DNA from: Catalinimonas niigatensis
Lineage (GTDB): Bacteria; Bacteroidota; Bacteroidia; Cytophagales; Cyclobacteriaceae
DNA length: 64,000 bases
Direction: 5' to 3'
NCBI RefSeq assembly: GCF_030506285.1
Contig: NZ_CP119422.1
Span: 4,451,501-4,515,500 of the forward strand
Shown one piece after another: positions 35,901 to 53,170 of the stretch. Position numbers and translations under genes: made by a program. Each line of letters starts with the position of its first letter. Positions within the stretch are counted from its first letter, which is position 1. The notes under the pieces are model-generated. The model saw only the letters and a program-made list of their open reading frames with translations, was not told where the DNA came from and searched no databases.

Positions 35901-36674
35901 TCAGGCGCTTTCCTGTTTGTTTTTTTCTGCAATGAGTCTTAAACCTTCCAGCGTAAGCCAGGGATCTAGTGCATCAAATTGATCGGTCAGGGGTGCAATG
36001 ACTTCTGCTAACCCTCCGGTGGCAATGACCTTAACAGGTTCACCCAATTCTCCTTTAATTTTTTTGATCAATGATTCTACCAAGCCTACATATCCCAATA
36101 CCACTCCTGATTGTATCGCATGGATGGTATTTTTGCCAATCACTGAAGGAGGTGCTTCCAACTGTACAAAAGGCAATTGGGCGGTATTGGAAGAAAGGGC
36201 TTTCATAGCAGACTTAATACCAGGAGCGATGGAAGCACCCAGCAGCACCCCCGTTTTTCCAACGACAGTAATGGACAGAGCCGTTCCAAAATCTACAACA
36301 ATACAGTTGTCTTGGTATTTAACATATCCTGCTACCGCATTGGTCAGTAGATCAGAGCCGATTTCCAGCGGATTGTCAATTTTCACCGATATTCCGGTAT
36401 CAGTTTTAGCATTTATCAGTAAAGGCTCTACGCCAAACATATTGCGGACCATATGCAGGAAAGTTGGGCTAAGCGGCGGAACCACACTGCTGATGACTAC
36501 TTGCTTTATGTGCTCAAGACTGTAGTCATGATTGGAAATCAGGGAGCGGAACAAGACTTGATACTCATCTGAAGTTTTGTCAGCCACTGTATTTAATCGC
36601 CAGCGATGTTGCCAGCCAGCACCATAGATTCCAAAAGCAATATTTGAGTTACCGATGTCAATTGCTAATAACAT
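35901..36674 (-). CDS. coaX: Type III pantothenate kinase
   Basis: A 257-residue kinase that phosphorylates pantothenate in the first step of coenzyme A synthesis. The N-terminal phosphate-binding motif DIGNSNIAFG (6-15), the VVDFGTALSITVV motif and the GGLAEVI motif are those of the type III (CoaX) enzyme, which differs from CoaA. Start and length agree with the family. It is divergent from the SlyD-like gene with 67 bases between starts. Confidence 0.93.
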   Translation of the reverse strand: MLLAIDIGNSNIAFGIYGAGWQHRWRLNTVADKTSDEYQVLFRSLISNHDYSLEHIKQVVISSVVPPLSPTFLHMVRNMFGVEPLLINAKTDTGISVKIDNPLEIGSDLLTNAVAGYVKYQDNCIVVDFGTALSITVVGKTGVLLGASIAPGIKSAMKALSSNTAQLPFVQLEAPPSVIGKNTIHAIQSGVVLGYVGLVESLIKKIKGELGEPVKVIATGGLAEVIAPLTDQFDALDPWLTLEGLRLIAEKNKQESA

Positions 36675-47824: not shown

Positions 47825-49777
47825 ATGAAATTTTTTACGAAACTACTCATCATTAGTTCTATTTTGCTTTTTTTTAGCTGTGAAGAAGATTTTACTCTCA
47901 ATTCAATGCAACATTTTCCATTAGCTAACAGCTTTAATTTGGGAGAAAACTCTGAGATTATTATTGATAATACAGATTTGGGATTTAGTACTACAGGTTC
48001 TTGGACAATCAGTACTTGGCAAGGAGGAGGATATACCAGATATGGAGATGACTACTATCATGATAATAACACTGGGAAAGGCAGTAAAGCGGCTACTTTC
48101 ACGACAAGCGTAACTCCTGGAAATTATGATGTATATGCATGGTGGTGCGCTTCCCCAAATAGAGCTACAAATACACCTTTTGAAATTATTACAAGTACGG
48201 GGAGCGAGACAATTCTCATCAACCAAAGAGAACAAGGAGGGGAGTGGATATTGATAGGAAATTACACATTTGGGTCAACAGCTAATGTAATTATCAACAA
48301 CGCTAATACAGATGGATATGTAGTAGCAGATGCAATTAAATTAGAGGCTACATCTAATAATAATTATCGTGTTCAAGTTAATATTACTTCAGGAACACCA
48401 ACCTACAACAATACTACCTGGAATCATCTTAATTTGGCTCCCTCTTCTGGTGCAAGTCTAAATAATCTACAAGATACTGATGGAAATGCAACTGGAATTA
48501 ATTTCAAAATTACTTCTTCAGGTTTTATTGCTAACAATAATGGTCCCCAAACAGGTGATGATTCAGGTGTTGTTCCTGATGGGGTCATGAAAACTTATTA
48601 TTACATTGAAAATGATGAACAGACACTTGAACTTACTGGGTTAAATGCTTCTGATACTTATTCATTTACATTTTATGGAGGAAGTAGTTATTCTGGTGAT
48701 CGAACCGCCATTTATACTATTGATAATCAATCAGTATCATTAAATGCTGCATTAAATACTTCACAGACAGTTCAAATATCTAATGTTATACCTAATAGTA
48801 CAGGTAATATCATTATCAAAATGAATAAAGGTTTAGGGGCAAGTTATGGTTTTTTAAATTCGATAATTATTGATGTTAACAGTAGTAGTGGAGGGGATAA
48901 TAGCACTAATGATTTACCATCCGCATTACCCCCATTAGAACTTTTGAGAGGATATGAGTTTGAGGATAACATCGGAAGAAATGTAAATATAACCCAAGAC
49001 GGAATTAAGGTTCACCATTTATCTCGTGAAGGAGGAATAGTAATATCTACAGATGGTGGGTCTAGAGGTACAGTAGGAGCTTACCATTTTAAAATATTAA
49101 ATGATGGAGACACATACTCAGGGAGTGGCGAATTTTATAGACAAGAGCTAGAACCTCGTAATTTACCTGCACCATATTTTACAAATGGTCGTCAGGCCAA
49201 ATGGGGTCAGGAATATGTATATCAGCTACGGAGAAAAATGACAGAGAATTACCAGATTGGAAATGAATACGTTGGTTTTATGGGGGGAAAGAACGATTAT
49301 TTTTCATCAAGAAGTGGAACATCTCTAAAAACAGAGGGCGATCATTATCGGTATGAAATGAACTTTGATACAGAAAGTGGTGGAACTGGTAATGGACAGG
49401 AAGACGGACCTTATGTTCCATGGAGACGCCAATATTTTGCGAGTGATGGAGAAGTATTAGAACCTGGTGTTGATTTTAATAGCAATACATTTATGGGTTC
49501 AGGTTATGAAAAAATATCTAATGATATCGGAAAATGGGTTGTCTGGACTTGGCATGTAAAATGGAGCTATGAAAGTGATGGTTTTCTCAGAATTTACAAA
49601 GACAATCAACTATTTATGTCATACGATGGTCCCAATACATTTAAGGATATTGTAGATAGAGCTCCATATTTCAAATTTGGTATTTACAACAACTATTGGA
49701 AAAACCCTAATAACAATACTGGTTCAAGTATACAAGAAGCCTATGTAGATTATTTTAGAGTATATGTGCCTGAATAA
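47825..49777 (+). CDS. Polysaccharide lyase lipoprotein with golvesin-like N-terminal domain
   Basis: A 650-residue lipoprotein: signal ending ILLFFSC (about 14-20). Residues about 40-175 are a golvesin/Xly-like domain (IIDNTDLGF, SWTISTWQGGGYTRYGDDYYH, DGYVVADAIKLE). Residues about 180-350 form a beta-sandwich-like module resembling a carbohydrate-binding domain. Residues about 365-650 match a heparin-lyase-I/PL-like jelly-roll (GAYHFKILND, YRQELEPRN, WVVWTWHVKWSYESDGFLRIYKDNQ, YFKFGIYNNYW, AYVDYFRVY). The enzyme likely cleaves an acidic polysaccharide such as glucuronan, alginate or a glycosaminoglycan; the substrate is undetermined. The gene is far more AT-rich than chromosomal genes here and stands between IS remnants, so lateral transfer is likely. 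Confidence 0.82.
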   Translation: MKFFTKLLIISSILLFFSCEEDFTLNSMQHFPLANSFNLGENSEIIIDNTDLGFSTTGSWTISTWQGGGYTRYGDDYYHDNNTGKGSKAATFTTSVTPGNYDVYAWWCASPNRATNTPFEIITSTGSETILINQREQGGEWILIGNYTFGSTANVIINNANTDGYVVADAIKLEATSNNNYRVQVNITSGTPTYNNTTWNHLNLAPSSGASLNNLQDTDGNATGINFKITSSGFIANNNGPQTGDDSGVVPDGVMKTYYYIENDEQTLELTGLNASDTYSFTFYGGSSYSGDRTAIYTIDNQSVSLNAALNTSQTVQISNVIPNSTGNIIIKMNKGLGASYGFLNSIIIDVNSSSGGDNSTNDLPSALPPLELLRGYEFEDNIGRNVNITQDGIKVHHLSREGGIVISTDGGSRGTVGAYHFKILNDGDTYSGSGEFYRQELEPRNLPAPYFTNGRQAKWGQEYVYQLRRKMTENYQIGNEYVGFMGGKNDYFSSRSGTSLKTEGDHYRYEMNFDTESGGTGNGQEDGPYVPWRRQYFASDGEVLEPGVDFNSNTFMGSGYEKISNDIGKWVVWTWHVKWSYESDGFLRIYKDNQLFMSYDGPNTFKDIVDRAPYFKFGIYNNYWKNPNNNTGSSIQEAYVDYFRVYVPE

Positions 49778-49826
49778 GTGGTTTTAATCATTATTAAGTA
49801 GTATTGTTTGGAAAATCATTTTATGC

Positions 49827-49868
49827 AAAAAAATGGATTAAGTGCTTAGTCCATTTTTTTGTTTTTTT
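49827..49868 (+). terminator. Rho-independent terminator after the polysaccharide lyase
   Basis: A 15-base stem with one wobble pair (AAAAAAATGGATTAA at 49827-49841 and TTAGTCCATTTTTTT at 49846-49860) ends in further T residues. It closes the lyase gene just before the IS3 element. Confidence 0.85.
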
Positions 49869-49885
49869 GACTATATTATAAATTA

Positions 49886-49910
49886 TGGCTTATCCTGCAA
49901 TGAGTCAACA
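49886..49910 (-). repeat. Right terminal inverted repeat of IS3-family copy 1
   Basis: TGGCTTATCC...GAGTCAACA (25 bases) matches the repeats at 51549-51573 and 52180-52204 in about 19 of 25 positions and reads inward into the copy whose orfB is on the minus strand. Confidence 0.7.
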
Positions 49911-49968
49911 GATAAAAAAGAATTTTAGGGCGGAAAAAGGCATTTCATGGTTTGTAATATTTTAAGAT

Positions 49969-50558
49969 TTAGGCTACAAGTACATTAAATCGTTCTTTGT
50001 TAGTGGATCTTTGATATTTTTTCCAGCGCTTTTTGAGTGGAATATTGAGTTCATGAGCTTTAGCTGGCGTCTATCCAGACCGGGTCAAATAATCCAGACT
50101 AGCATGTGGTCTTATATAATTATAACAGTGTATTGCTTTCTTTGTAGCGTGGTATGCCTGGTGAAAAGAAGGAAAGCCATTCTCCAATAAGAACTCATGT
50201 TTCATCGTCAGATTAGTTCTTTCGGCCATTGCGTTTTCATACGGATCAGGTGATTCTGTCATGGAAACAGTGATTTCATGATTCTGTAACAGACCTATAT
50301 ACTGATGACAACAATACTGAATGCCCCGATCAGAGTGATGAATGAGTGGAGTAGGGGAGTCCTCCTCCTTTTGACTCAATGCCATATCAAGAGCCATCAA
50401 TGGACCACGTGCATGCAAAGTAGGATTCAGACTCCAGCCAATGATCTTACGAGAGAAAGCGTCAGTAATCAGACTCAGATAACTAAAATGATTCCCTGTT
50501 CTGATATATGTAATATCTGATACCCAAAGTTGGTTGATCCCGGAAGGTTTAAAATTCT
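49969..50558 (-). pseudogene. IS3-family OrfB transposase, C-terminal part
   Basis: The frame carries the DDE integrase core: SDITYIRTGNHFSYLSLITDAFSRKIIGW, HHSDRGIQY, and the E-containing YENAMAERTNLTMKHEFL, ending YIRPHASLDYLT. A TAG stop at 50071 interrupts the frame, with the family C-terminus (TPAKAHELNIPLKKRWKKYQ) continuing in frame to a stop at 49969. The 5 prime part lies beyond an IS1 insertion at 50559. Confidence 0.82.
50551..50558. repeat. 8-bp target duplication of IS1 (left copy)
   Basis: AAAATTCT at 50551-50558 and again at 51365-51372, directly outside the IS1 ends. Confidence 0.9.
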
Positions 50559-50618
50559 GGTGGTGGTAAAGAATGTATGATAATGAATAAAGAGCAATGA
50601 AAGCTTTGTTAGATAGTT

Positions 50619-50894
50619 ATGTACGAAATAACAATCAAACTCAAATGCGCCCATTGCTCAAGTGTCAAAGTATCAAAAAACGAGAAGAAACCGAATGGTA
50701 AACAAAATTTTCTATGCAAAGACTGTGGTAAACAGTTTCAGGCCAATTATCAATACGCCGGGGCTGACCCTTCCAACAAATCACTTATCCGGATCATGTT
50801 GTTAAGGAACTGCGGTATTAGGGATATAGAAACAATATTAGGAGTAAGCCGCTATAGCGTGCTGAGCTGTTTAAAACGTATGCCATGCAAATAA
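50619..50894 (+). CDS. insA: IS1 InsA (zinc-finger/helix-turn-helix) protein
   Basis: A 91-residue protein with a zinc-finger pair (CAHCSS and FLCKDCGKQF) and a helix-turn-helix (RNCGIRDIETILGVSRYSVLSCLKR). The InsA product binds the IS1 ends and acts as a repressor on its own. A T_TTA_AAA slippery heptamer at 50870-50876 lies just before its stop, so a minus-one shift would produce the InsAB transposase. Confidence 0.88.
   Translation: MYEITIKLKCAHCSSVKVSKNEKKPNGKQNFLCKDCGKQFQANYQYAGADPSNKSLIRIMLLRNCGIRDIETILGVSRYSVLSCLKRMPCK
50870..50876 (+). promoter_or_regulatory. Programmed -1 frameshift site of IS1
   Basis: The heptamer T TTA AAA, in the insA codon phase, has the classical X XXY YYZ form. 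Shifting here gives the InsAB fusion. Confidence 0.8.
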
Positions 50895-51355
50895 GCCCCC
50901 ACCCCAGCCACATATACTATCCGAGCCTTCAGATAGATGAGCGGTCCGCCGCGCGGTTTTGGACATATGTAGGCAAACGAAAAGAGGGAAAAATTTGGCT
51001 TTTATACACTTACAGCCCTGAATATGATGAAATAGTAGCTTACGTGACTGGGGACCGGTCAGCTAAAACAGTGGACAAGCTTTATGGAAAACTAGCCGAA
51101 ATAGAAGTGGGTGAATTTTGTACAGATGAGTGGCAGGCTTTCCAGAAAGTACTGCCTGCTGAAAAACACCGGGTAGGTAAGGAATACACCGCAGCGGCGG
51201 CCGCAAAGCATATAGAGGGCGTCAATACTAGTTTTAGGGCAAGGAACAGAAGGTTGGTAAGACAAACAACATGCTTTTCAAAAGACGTAAAAAACCATTT
51301 ATCAGCTATCAATTTGATGATAAATTACAGAAATCAAACTCATCATACATTTTAA
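50885..51355 (+). CDS. insB: IS1 InsB transposase frame
   Basis: A 156-residue frame overlapping insA, with IDERSAARFWTYVGKRKEGKIWLLYTYSPE, CTDEWQAF and the C-terminal KDVKNHLSAINLMINYRN of IS1 DDE transposases. It lies in the minus-one frame relative to insA and is expressed as an InsAB fusion by frameshifting at the upstream heptamer. Its internal ATG overlaps the insA stop, so independent translation is also possible. Confidence 0.88.
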   Translation: MQISPHPSHIYYPSLQIDERSAARFWTYVGKRKEGKIWLLYTYSPEYDEIVAYVTGDRSAKTVDKLYGKLAEIEVGEFCTDEWQAFQKVLPAEKHRVGKEYTAAAAAKHIEGVNTSFRARNRRLVRQTTCFSKDVKNHLSAINLMINYRNQTHHTF

Positions 51356-51364
51356 ACCACAACC

Positions 51365-51372
51365 AAAATTCT
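51365..51372. repeat. 8-bp target duplication of IS1 (right copy)
   Basis: AAAATTCT, identical to 50551-50558; part of the IS3 orfB QNF codons. Confidence 0.9.
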
Positions 51373-51548
51373 GAGTGAGATTCTCAAACTTTCTATATCC
51401 ATGCTCTGAATAAGTAGTCTTAACCCTTAATGTTTTGGGTCTGATGAGCATATCCTGCTTTTTGAGAATTTCATTCAACTTATCACGGCCACACTTAATG
51501 CCTTTTTGTTTGCGGAAAGGAACCATCATATAATGCAGTTTTATTGTG
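51365..51548 (-). pseudogene. IS3-family OrfB transposase, middle part
   Basis: The frame reads KLHYMMVPFRKQKGIKCGRDKLNEILKKQ and ends YRKFENLTQNF at the IS1 insertion; it continues on the far side of the IS1 as NFKPSGINQLWVSDITY. At its upstream end it meets a CAC target (51546-51548) adjoining another IS3 end, so the N-terminal part is lost from this copy. Confidence 0.8.
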
Positions 51549-51573
51549 TGGCGCATCCGAAAATTAGTCAACA
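51549..51573 (+). repeat. Left terminal inverted repeat of IS3-family copy 2
   Basis: TGGCGCATCC...GTCAACA, 25 bases, 39 bases upstream of the orfA ATG. It is identical to the copy at 52180-52204. Confidence 0.85.
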
Positions 51574-51611
51574 CACCTACTGGTAACTCTTTATTAATCA
51601 ATCATTTAAGC

Positions 51612-52001
51612 ATGATCACTTCAAAATACTATCCTGTTAAGACCAAAAAACAAGCCGTACAGTATGTTCAGGTTGGACTACTTTCTGAAGAGCAGGCTTG
51701 CCATAAATACCACATTTCCAGTAAATTACTACACCAATGGATGCGATGGCATGAGAAATTCTTTGTTCAACCGCAGTGGCGGCCACCACATAATAATCTC
51801 GATATCATGGCTCAGAAAAAAAGCAAAACTAAGGCTGATCTGAAGGATAAACAGAAGATCAAAGAGCTTGAAAAGCAGCTTAAGCTGATGAAAAAAGAAA
51901 ATGAACTGGCTCAGTTAAAGGCTGAGGCCTATAAAACTATGATTGAGGTAGCCGAAGAACACTTCAATATCAAAATTGGAAAAAAGTCTGGTGCCAAGTA
52001 A
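51612..52001 (+). CDS. IS3-family OrfA protein
   Basis: A 130-residue protein with an N-terminal helix-turn-helix (KTKKQAVQYVQVGLLSEEQACHKYHISSKLLHQWM) and a C-terminal leucine-zipper-like coiled coil (IKELEKQLKLMKKENELAQLKAEAYK). It binds the IS ends and, fused to OrfB by a minus-one frameshift, forms the transposase. Start is the ATG at 51612; upstream codons in the same frame read into the terminal repeat. Confidence 0.85.
   Translation: MITSKYYPVKTKKQAVQYVQVGLLSEEQACHKYHISSKLLHQWMRWHEKFFVQPQWRPPHNNLDIMAQKKSKTKADLKDKQKIKELEKQLKLMKKENELAQLKAEAYKTMIEVAEEHFNIKIGKKSGAK
51980..51986 (+). promoter_or_regulatory. Programmed -1 frameshift site of IS3 copy 2
   Basis: A AAA AAG in the orfA codon phase is the canonical IS3/IS911 slippery heptamer. 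Shifting gives KKVWCQVIQKLKLRYPLKG, continuing into the orfB frame. Confidence 0.8.
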
Positions 52002-52179
52002 TTCAGAAACTTAAATTGCGCTACCCACTCAAAGGACTTCAGGTTCTTTGCGGATTACTTGGCTTGTCAAGATTTGCGTATTATAAAGCTTTAAAGCAAA
52101 AGCATTCCCGCCAAGAAATTGAGGAAGAAGTTGTCGCAAAAGTAAAAGATATCCGAGAGAAACTACCTCGCGTAGGCAC
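51981..52179 (+). pseudogene. IS3-family OrfB transposase, N-terminal part
   Basis: The frame carries the OrfB N-terminus (YPLKGLQVLCGLLGLSRFAYYKALKQKHSRQE) and stops matching after EKLPRVGT at 52179. The residues after that come from the terminal repeat (GASEN then stop). The homologous continuation, IKLHYMMV, lies on the opposite strand at 51546. Confidence 0.82.
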
Positions 52180-52204
52180 TGGCGCATCCGAAAATTAGTC
52201 AACA
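52180..52204 (+). repeat. Third IS3-type terminal repeat
   Basis: Identical over 25 bases to 51549-51573, and the next 25 bases (ACCTACTG.TAAC.CT) also match. It lies directly after CAC at 52177-52179. No orfA follows, so it is the end of a truncated third copy or of a rearranged copy. Confidence 0.85.
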
Positions 52205-52249
52205 AACCTACTGATAACCCTCTATAAGTGATAAATACCTACAGGTTTT

Positions 52250-53170
52250 TTAATTGAACGACCTCCTGAATTCTAAAGGAGAGAGATCTGTCTTGGTCTT
52301 GAATAATCGATTGAAGGACTGGGAATACTCAAACCCTAACTGATAGGCTATTTCGCTGACCGAGAAATTGCTCGTTGACAGAAGTTCTTTGGCTTTTTCA
52401 ATCAGTTTATCATGTATCAACTGCTGGGCATTTCTTCCGGTAAGAGAGCGAAGCATATCACTGAGATAACTCGGAGAAAGATTGACCTGCTCAGCCAGAA
52501 ATTGCACAGTCGGAATACCATTGTTTAAGGACTTTTCATGGTCTAAGTAGTCATCCAGATAGCTTTCCAGTTTTTGCAGTATGTCATGGTTTACTGCTTT
52601 GCGTGTGATGAACTGACGGTTGTAGAACCTATTTGCAAAATTCAGGAGAAGTGCTATCTGGGAGATGATCACATACTGACTAAAATCGTCAATGCGACTG
52701 CTTAATTCGGTTTCTATCATTTTAAAAATAGAAAGCATGGTTTCCTTTTCTTCCGCAGATAGATGTAATGCCTCATGGGTAGCATAGGAAAAGAAACCAT
52801 ACTGTCTGATCTCCTGGGCTATCGGATGACCTAGAAAAAAGTCAGGATGAATAAGCAATGTATACATTGAGCAGTCTACTGCATCCTTATTATCATCACC
52901 ACCAATGATCTGATTGGGAGAAGCAAACAGCAATCCACCTTCATTGAAATCATAATAATTCTGACCATACCTCAGCCTGGCGCTTTGCCTGGGCTTGTAG
53001 GAGATCTTGTAAAAATTCAGCACATGTGAGCCGGTTGGTATGTTCATATCATCACGATTAGCACCATTTATTAGGCTGATCAGCGGGTGTTGGGGTTCTG
53101 GCAGATTAAATGCATGGTGTGCATCCGAAATGGAGTCAAATTTATGAGGACGCCTCTCTTCTTTCTTCAT
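52250..53170 (-). CDS. AraC-family transcriptional regulator
   Basis: A 306-residue regulator with an N-terminal cupin-like sensor region (about 30-190) and a C-terminal AraC/XylS DNA-binding domain (about 200-300; FLAEQVNLSPSYLSDMLRSLTGRNAQ and VSEIAYQLGFEYSQSFNRLFKTKTDLSPLEF). The N-terminal architecture resembles small-molecule-responsive AraC members such as those next to short-chain dehydrogenases. It is 60 bases downstream of the SDR gene on the same strand, so it is probably co-transcribed and may regulate it. It also marks the right edge of the mobile region. Confidence 0.88.
   Translation of the reverse strand: MKKEERRPHKFDSISDAHHAFNLPEPQHPLISLINGANRDDMNIPTGSHVLNFYKISYKPRQSARLRYGQNYYDFNEGGLLFASPNQIIGGDDNKDAVDCSMYTLLIHPDFFLGHPIAQEIRQYGFFSYATHEALHLSAEEKETMLSIFKMIETELSSRIDDFSQYVIISQIALLLNFANRFYNRQFITRKAVNHDILQKLESYLDDYLDHEKSLNNGIPTVQFLAEQVNLSPSYLSDMLRSLTGRNAQQLIHDKLIEKAKELLSTSNFSVSEIAYQLGFEYSQSFNRLFKTKTDLSPLEFRRSFN

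Follow-up and report, generated by a model that had tools for sequence, protein, structure and literature searches.

A split IS3-family element in Catalinimonas niigatensis that probably inverted its own left half by using two left-type ends

Architecture of the disrupted element

The window analysed here is a stretch of 64,000 nucleotides from the genome of Catalinimonas niigatensis, which is assembled as one contig of 7,134,482 bp with a completeness estimate of 100. Between positions 49886 and 52225 of the window lie the pieces of an insertion sequence (IS), arranged in the order probable right terminal repeat (IRR), minus-strand parts of orfB with an IS1-type insert between them, the triplet GTG, a left terminal repeat (IRL), orfA, the N-terminal part of orfB, the triplet CAC and a second left end (IRL'). 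Sequence downstream of IRL' (after 52225) is not alignable to the IS3 element, and the IRL' side is adjoined by a minus-strand gene that, going by its sequence, we take to encode an AraC-type regulator. A search of positions 49000-53000 revealed no tandem repeat.

The coding region is distributed over both strands. On the plus strand, orfA (51612-52001) is followed in the -1 frame by orfB, with a run of AAAAAAG near 51980 that would serve as the slippery site, an arrangement that corresponds to the two-frame organization of IS3-family elements. The N-terminal part of orfB (51947-52179) is an open frame that ends at CAC (52177-52179). The remainder is located on the minus strand, where a middle part (51365-51548) starts at the same triplet, CAC, which appears as GTG at 51546-51548 in plus orientation. 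Beyond the IS1-type insert, the C-terminal part (50071-50558, minus strand) carries the rve/IS3 transposase region and ends at an in-frame stop (50071-50073).

The nearest intact relatives that we found are two copies in the same genome (G000), located at G000:C1:197428-198602 (L128) and 301763-302937 (L127), whose two proteins are 59% identical to OrfA and OrfB in the search alignments. When the three orfB pieces were compared separately with the OrfB protein of L127, identities were 53-55% per piece, and the pieces corresponded to residues 1-66 (N-terminal part, 55%), 67-125 (middle part, 53%) and 130-315, the last of these running past one stop. The two halves therefore meet at residues 66|67 of L127, with no overlap except CAC and with agreeing codon phase, as expected from the proposal of the first-pass annotation that the halves are continuous across this triplet.

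Membership in the IS3 family is best documented by the C-terminal part of orfB. A predicted protein from this region (50074-50580), the N-terminus of which includes about seven residues from the IS1-type insert, matches the IS3-type DDE (rve) transposase models Pfam PF00665 (3.6e-18, above the cut-off) and PF13683 (3e-16), as well as the NCBIfam IS3 model NF033516 (4.7e-51; 174 bits, cut-off 160). OrfA matches NF033516 at 3e-06, below the curated cut-off of that model, and the N-terminal part of orfB alone gave no Pfam match. The N-terminal region of OrfA (51615-52001) also matches Pfam DUF1153 (25.1 bits, cut-off 23.5) and, far below the cut-off, the model for the CtrA inhibitor SciP. Both of these matches probably reflect a shared helix-turn-helix.

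The IS1-type element that interrupts the minus-strand part of orfB spans 806 bp (50559-51364, plus strand; Pfam DDE_Tnp_IS1, 6.3e-22). It is flanked by an 8-bp duplication, AAAATTCT, at 50551-50558 and 51365-51372, and its ends match each other in inverted orientation at 19 of 23 positions. Relatives with 77-78% identity are located in the same genome at G000:C1:1547979 and 4587031. The remnant is thus broken both by this insertion and by the in-frame stop at 50071-50073. If the element's own transposase produced the rearrangement described below, the IS1-type insertion and the stop would have to have come later, and the sequence gives no date for either.

Terminal repeats and the common triplet

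A 25-mer, TGGCGCATCCGAAAATTAGTCAACA, occurs identically at 51549-51573 (IRL, plus strand, at the border of the plus-oriented left half) and at 52180-52204 (the outer portion of IRL'). The GTG at 51546-51548, the CAC at 52177-52179 and both 25-mers have the bases and positions that the first-pass annotation assigned to them. With up to three mismatches allowed, the 25-mer is found at only these two sites in the window (mean of 0.00 sites in 100 shuffles) and at the same two sites only in the whole genome, where a reversed control pattern was found at none. The repeat extends to 46 bases (51549-51594 and 52180-52225; 42/46 identical), such that identity is 25/25 within the terminal repeat and 17/21 beyond it; all four differences between IRL and IRL' fall at the 21 subterminal positions. 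Because of these differences, a second, diverged left end must, as judged from the two repeats, once have been present at 52180, a requirement that counts against the single-element reading proposed below.

This 25-mer, which begins TGGCGC, is very probably the true outer left end of an IS3-family element, because 19 of its 25 positions agree, on a count by eye, with those at which an intact relative in the same genome begins on the left. The ends of that relative are TGGATCGTCCTAAAAATAGTCTACA on the left and, read inward, TGAATAGAGCTAAAATAGGTCTGCA on the right. An earlier suggestion that the repeat is a real IS end is upheld by this comparison.

The opposite end of the element is probably represented by TGGCTTATCCTGCAATGAGTCAACA at 49886-49910 (plus strand, outer end at 49886), which is identical to IRL at 19 of 25 positions. 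Apart from the two left repeats, this is the only site on either strand of the window with fewer than eight mismatches to IRL (it has six, and the next best site has eight). When IRR itself is used as the query, however, an unrelated site at 35918 has seven mismatches, and the assignment therefore leans on position too. By arithmetic, IRR lies 194 bp past the last matched OrfB residue, as against 298 bp in L127, so that the probable repeat sits in the right place although not at the same distance. IRL and the probable IRR are imperfect and start with TG, as is seen for IS3-family elements in general and for the relatives found here.

The interior of IRR is not alignable with 52205-52225, and the end at 52180 is therefore classified as left-type. 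As a consequence of this arrangement, a left-type end adjoins the triplet at both junctions, whereas the right-type end is located at 49886 and at neither CAC. Both breakpoints fall exactly at outer ends of the IS and have the 3-bp duplication in common (GTG at 51546-51548, CAC at 52177-52179). The behaviour of CAC, which is present at both junctions and is the only overlap between the halves, is that of a 3-bp target duplication, in line with the first-pass annotation. This duplication belongs to an internal event. IS3-family elements duplicate 3 to 5 bp of target at the original insertion, but the outer left flank of that insertion is lost here or has been replaced by IRL'.

An artefact of assembly or amplification, in which an inverted chimera arose during sequencing, is a further rival explanation. 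We regard it as hardly credible, given that each of the two junctions coincides exactly with an IS end and that they have a 3-bp duplication in common, that a one-sided chimera would not yield two such junctions, and that the genome is a single contig with a completeness estimate of 100%.

Copies and relatives in this and other genomes

No other copy of orfA, of orfB or of either left end was found in the one-contig, 7.13-Mb genome. DNA matches of 77-78% identity within this genome lie in the IS1-type insert and not in the IS3 element, and the other matches are pieces of 66-73% identity. Because the orfB halves join with no overlap other than CAC and no other copy was found, the pieces are taken to represent a single element together with 46 bp of an additional left end. 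The first-pass annotation had correctly recognized pieces of opposite orientation, but had attributed them to two IS3 copies; neither the right end nor the IS1-type insert figures in it. It had also called for complete copies elsewhere in the genome from which the true ends could be read; none of the same element was found, and the intact relatives at 59% identity supplied a similar left end instead.

According to the same annotation, a copy inserted into orfB of a sister copy, after which the inverted copies recombined homologously. Such a history would account for CAC on both sides and for the opposite orientations. However, by reasoning, it should place a right-type end next to one of the two CAC triplets, whereas both ends there are left-type, the right-type end resides at 49886, the halves share nothing but CAC, and no sister copy was found in the genome. 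We therefore regard this proposal as very unlikely, while retaining the accompanying observation that two left-type ends at CAC are impossible to obtain from a simple nested insertion.

Searches were extended to samples of related genomes. Among 295 genomes sampled from the family, with at most two candidates scored per genome, 21 (this genome included) had DNA matches, and the best match outside this genome was 78% over 74 bases. OrfA matched in 67 of 390 genomes sampled from the order (again including this one, with a ceiling of 11 scored candidates for each genome); the match with the best E-value outside, in the congeneric genome G012, is 38% identical. For the C-terminal part of OrfB, 147 relatives were found in genome contigs by a search in which one of the six peptide patterns contained residues from the IS1-type insert, and the best identity among the best 80 of the 147 was 49%. 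An intact copy of the same element was not found within the sampled genomes and the candidates scored.

The AraC-type gene provided a second point of reference. Its nearest counterpart in the other two genomes of the genus (G012 and G091) is 51% identical, and the sequence downstream of that counterpart is not alignable by eye. In a search for an empty site, inspection by eye revealed no alignable sequence past the gene in G012 or past a paralogue fragment in the genome under study. The search thus yielded neither an ancestral arrangement nor an empty site, which counts against the self-inversion reading. Elsewhere in the genome under study, a segment at G000:C1:1668939-1669295 (L165) has 71% identity with the 119 residues at the C-terminus of the AraC-type protein and, as judged by eye, adjoins a putative transposase gene.

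The best 80 of the 147 loci carrying an IS3-type OrfB C-terminal part were also scanned, in other genomes, for an OrfB N-terminal part opposite in orientation to the C-terminal part. No flip was recognised in this crude scan, in which several of the loci are near-duplicates belonging to a single genome and the C-terminal frame is shorter than 240 amino acids in 16 of 80 cases, some near contig ends. The one locus flagged among the 80, on a Teredinibacter waterburyi contig (L107), was read differently: at L107:1234-2986, an apparently complete, different IS3-type element is found in inverted orientation next to a truncated IS3 orfB, of which the 3' part is present.

L127 (at 302 kb) and L128 (at 198 kb), which are in opposite orientation, have 29 of the 30 printed bp of left flank in common, and their right flanks are not shared, which suggests duplication or recombination around them. 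A further IS3-type element is present in four copies (L129 to L132), with a 3-bp duplication in L129 (CTG) and L132 (GTT) and none in L130 and L131; these 3-bp duplications speak for the self-inversion reading given below. By eye, the flanks of these four copies resemble one another, with GGAAG.. and ..CTTCC motifs, and L129 and L131 have 14 bp of right flank in common, hinting at a repeated target sequence.

Proposed self-inversion by two left ends and its known counterparts

The arrangement is most readily explained by autointegration, with inversion, of a single and now dead IS3-family element through two left-type ends, one of them an orphan, and to this reading we assign a probability of roughly 0.7. 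The ancestor would have been an ordinary minus-oriented element that terminated on the right at 49886. On the other side, its left end would have pointed towards an oppositely oriented second left end, IRL' (52180), either directly or across a spacer that has since been lost. This unflipped state is the simplest predicted precursor, since it links the right and left halves and makes neighbours of the two ends now found at the CAC sites. Transposase would then have paired the two left ends, as it normally does with ends that abut in a transposon circle, and both ends would have been cut and joined to CAC, a staggered 3-bp target lying in the element's own orfB. A concerted attack with this stagger is predicted to yield exactly the observed order, orientation and duplication. 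As a result, the 631-bp left half (51549-52179) would have been inverted, CAC duplicated, the left-left junction consumed and the transposase gene destroyed.

The ends, the duplication, the exact fit of the halves and the failure to find a second copy are observations, whereas the ancestral junction, the order of these events and catalysis by the transposase are all inferred from the present sequence, and the use of two left-type ends is both the surprising and the least proven part of the mechanism. The left-left pair might have arisen by insertion of the element beside an orphan end, or through the first transposition step (step I) if the asymmetry of this element is weaker than that of IS2, and it would then have had to serve in the second step (step II).

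A nest of three copies would place left ends at both CAC junctions without any left-left reaction, and would also explain the 4/21 subterminal differences between the two left ends. Here, copy A would have entered copy C at CAC in inverted orientation, and copy B would have gone into A at that very CAC in direct orientation. A subsequent deletion would have taken out nearly the whole of B, of which 46 bp persist, along with A's right half and C's left half. This series requires that two insertions independently hit one and the same position in an element of roughly 1.5 kb (by arithmetic from the coordinates, excluding the IS1-type insert) plus a third step, as well as three copies where none was found elsewhere in the genome. 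A self-insertion hotspot at CAC would make the series less improbable, and overall we consider it unlikely.

The locus is a clean natural footprint suggesting that a copy-out/paste-in transposase may join two left ends in step II. A left-left product of this kind helps to separate the rules for making junctions from those for using them, because accounts of IS2 and IS30 turn on how left and right ends differ. A more general proposal is that some IS3-family transposases can pair two left ends for concerted integration of both strands, even though two left ends fail in the first step of IS2, and that head-to-head left-left junctions would then constitute a natural, self-limiting trap in which an element flips and kills itself; we advance it tentatively, at somewhat below even odds. 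Self-attack of this kind may also be a route by which lineages lose an IS element. For the host, a single decayed element has no evident wider consequence, and the locus is best read as a real, well-bounded footprint of a variant of a known reaction in a dead element, not as a new kind of system.

With the IS3 family the element shares its orfA/orfB organization, the -1 slippery run, an rve transposase, TG-starting repeats of about 25 bp and a 3-bp duplication. Unlike the usual member of the family, this copy is split, with one half inverted, and bears an additional left end as well as an IS1-type insertion and a stop. Among the open-access literature on two left ends and a transposase, the IS3-family case is IS2, for which PMC3299598 states that the left end is without donor function in step I, that minicircles failed to form from derivatives in which both ends were left ends, and that left and right ends are both donors in step II. 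The same paper describes the abutted ends of minicircles in the IS3, IS30, IS21 and IS256 families as the substrate of a symmetrical step II attack. No left-left case appears in the accessible portions of an IS911 paper (PMC2909936) or of PMC11708052. A description of an IRL-IRL structure for an insertion sequence was not found in the open-access literature, a scope within which absence proves little.

The locus is therefore likened to autointegration by an inverted-repeat (IR-IR) junction without being a canonical example, because both ends are left-type (25/25 and 42/46 identical) where one left and one right end would be expected. For IS30, PMC9333248 describes IR-IR junctions that attack the plasmid backbone or inner IS sequence to produce deletions and inversion, with loss of the junction. 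The proposed event is similar in that joined ends would attack inner IS sequence and the inversion would consume the junction, but the targeted junctions of IS30 are reported there to be exclusively IRL-IRR. There is also a resemblance to the suicidal autointegration of Tn10, which is named in PMC3952818 as the best-understood bacterial example, and of Sleeping Beauty and piggyBac, whose self-attack gives inversions with target duplications and, for Sleeping Beauty, re-oriented ends (PMC3952818). These are cut-and-paste elements in which the element's own two ends attack, whereas here the second end would be a left-type orphan and the right end would have taken no part. Autointegration inversions are thus known in principle, and what is unusual at this locus is the apparent choice of two left-type ends.
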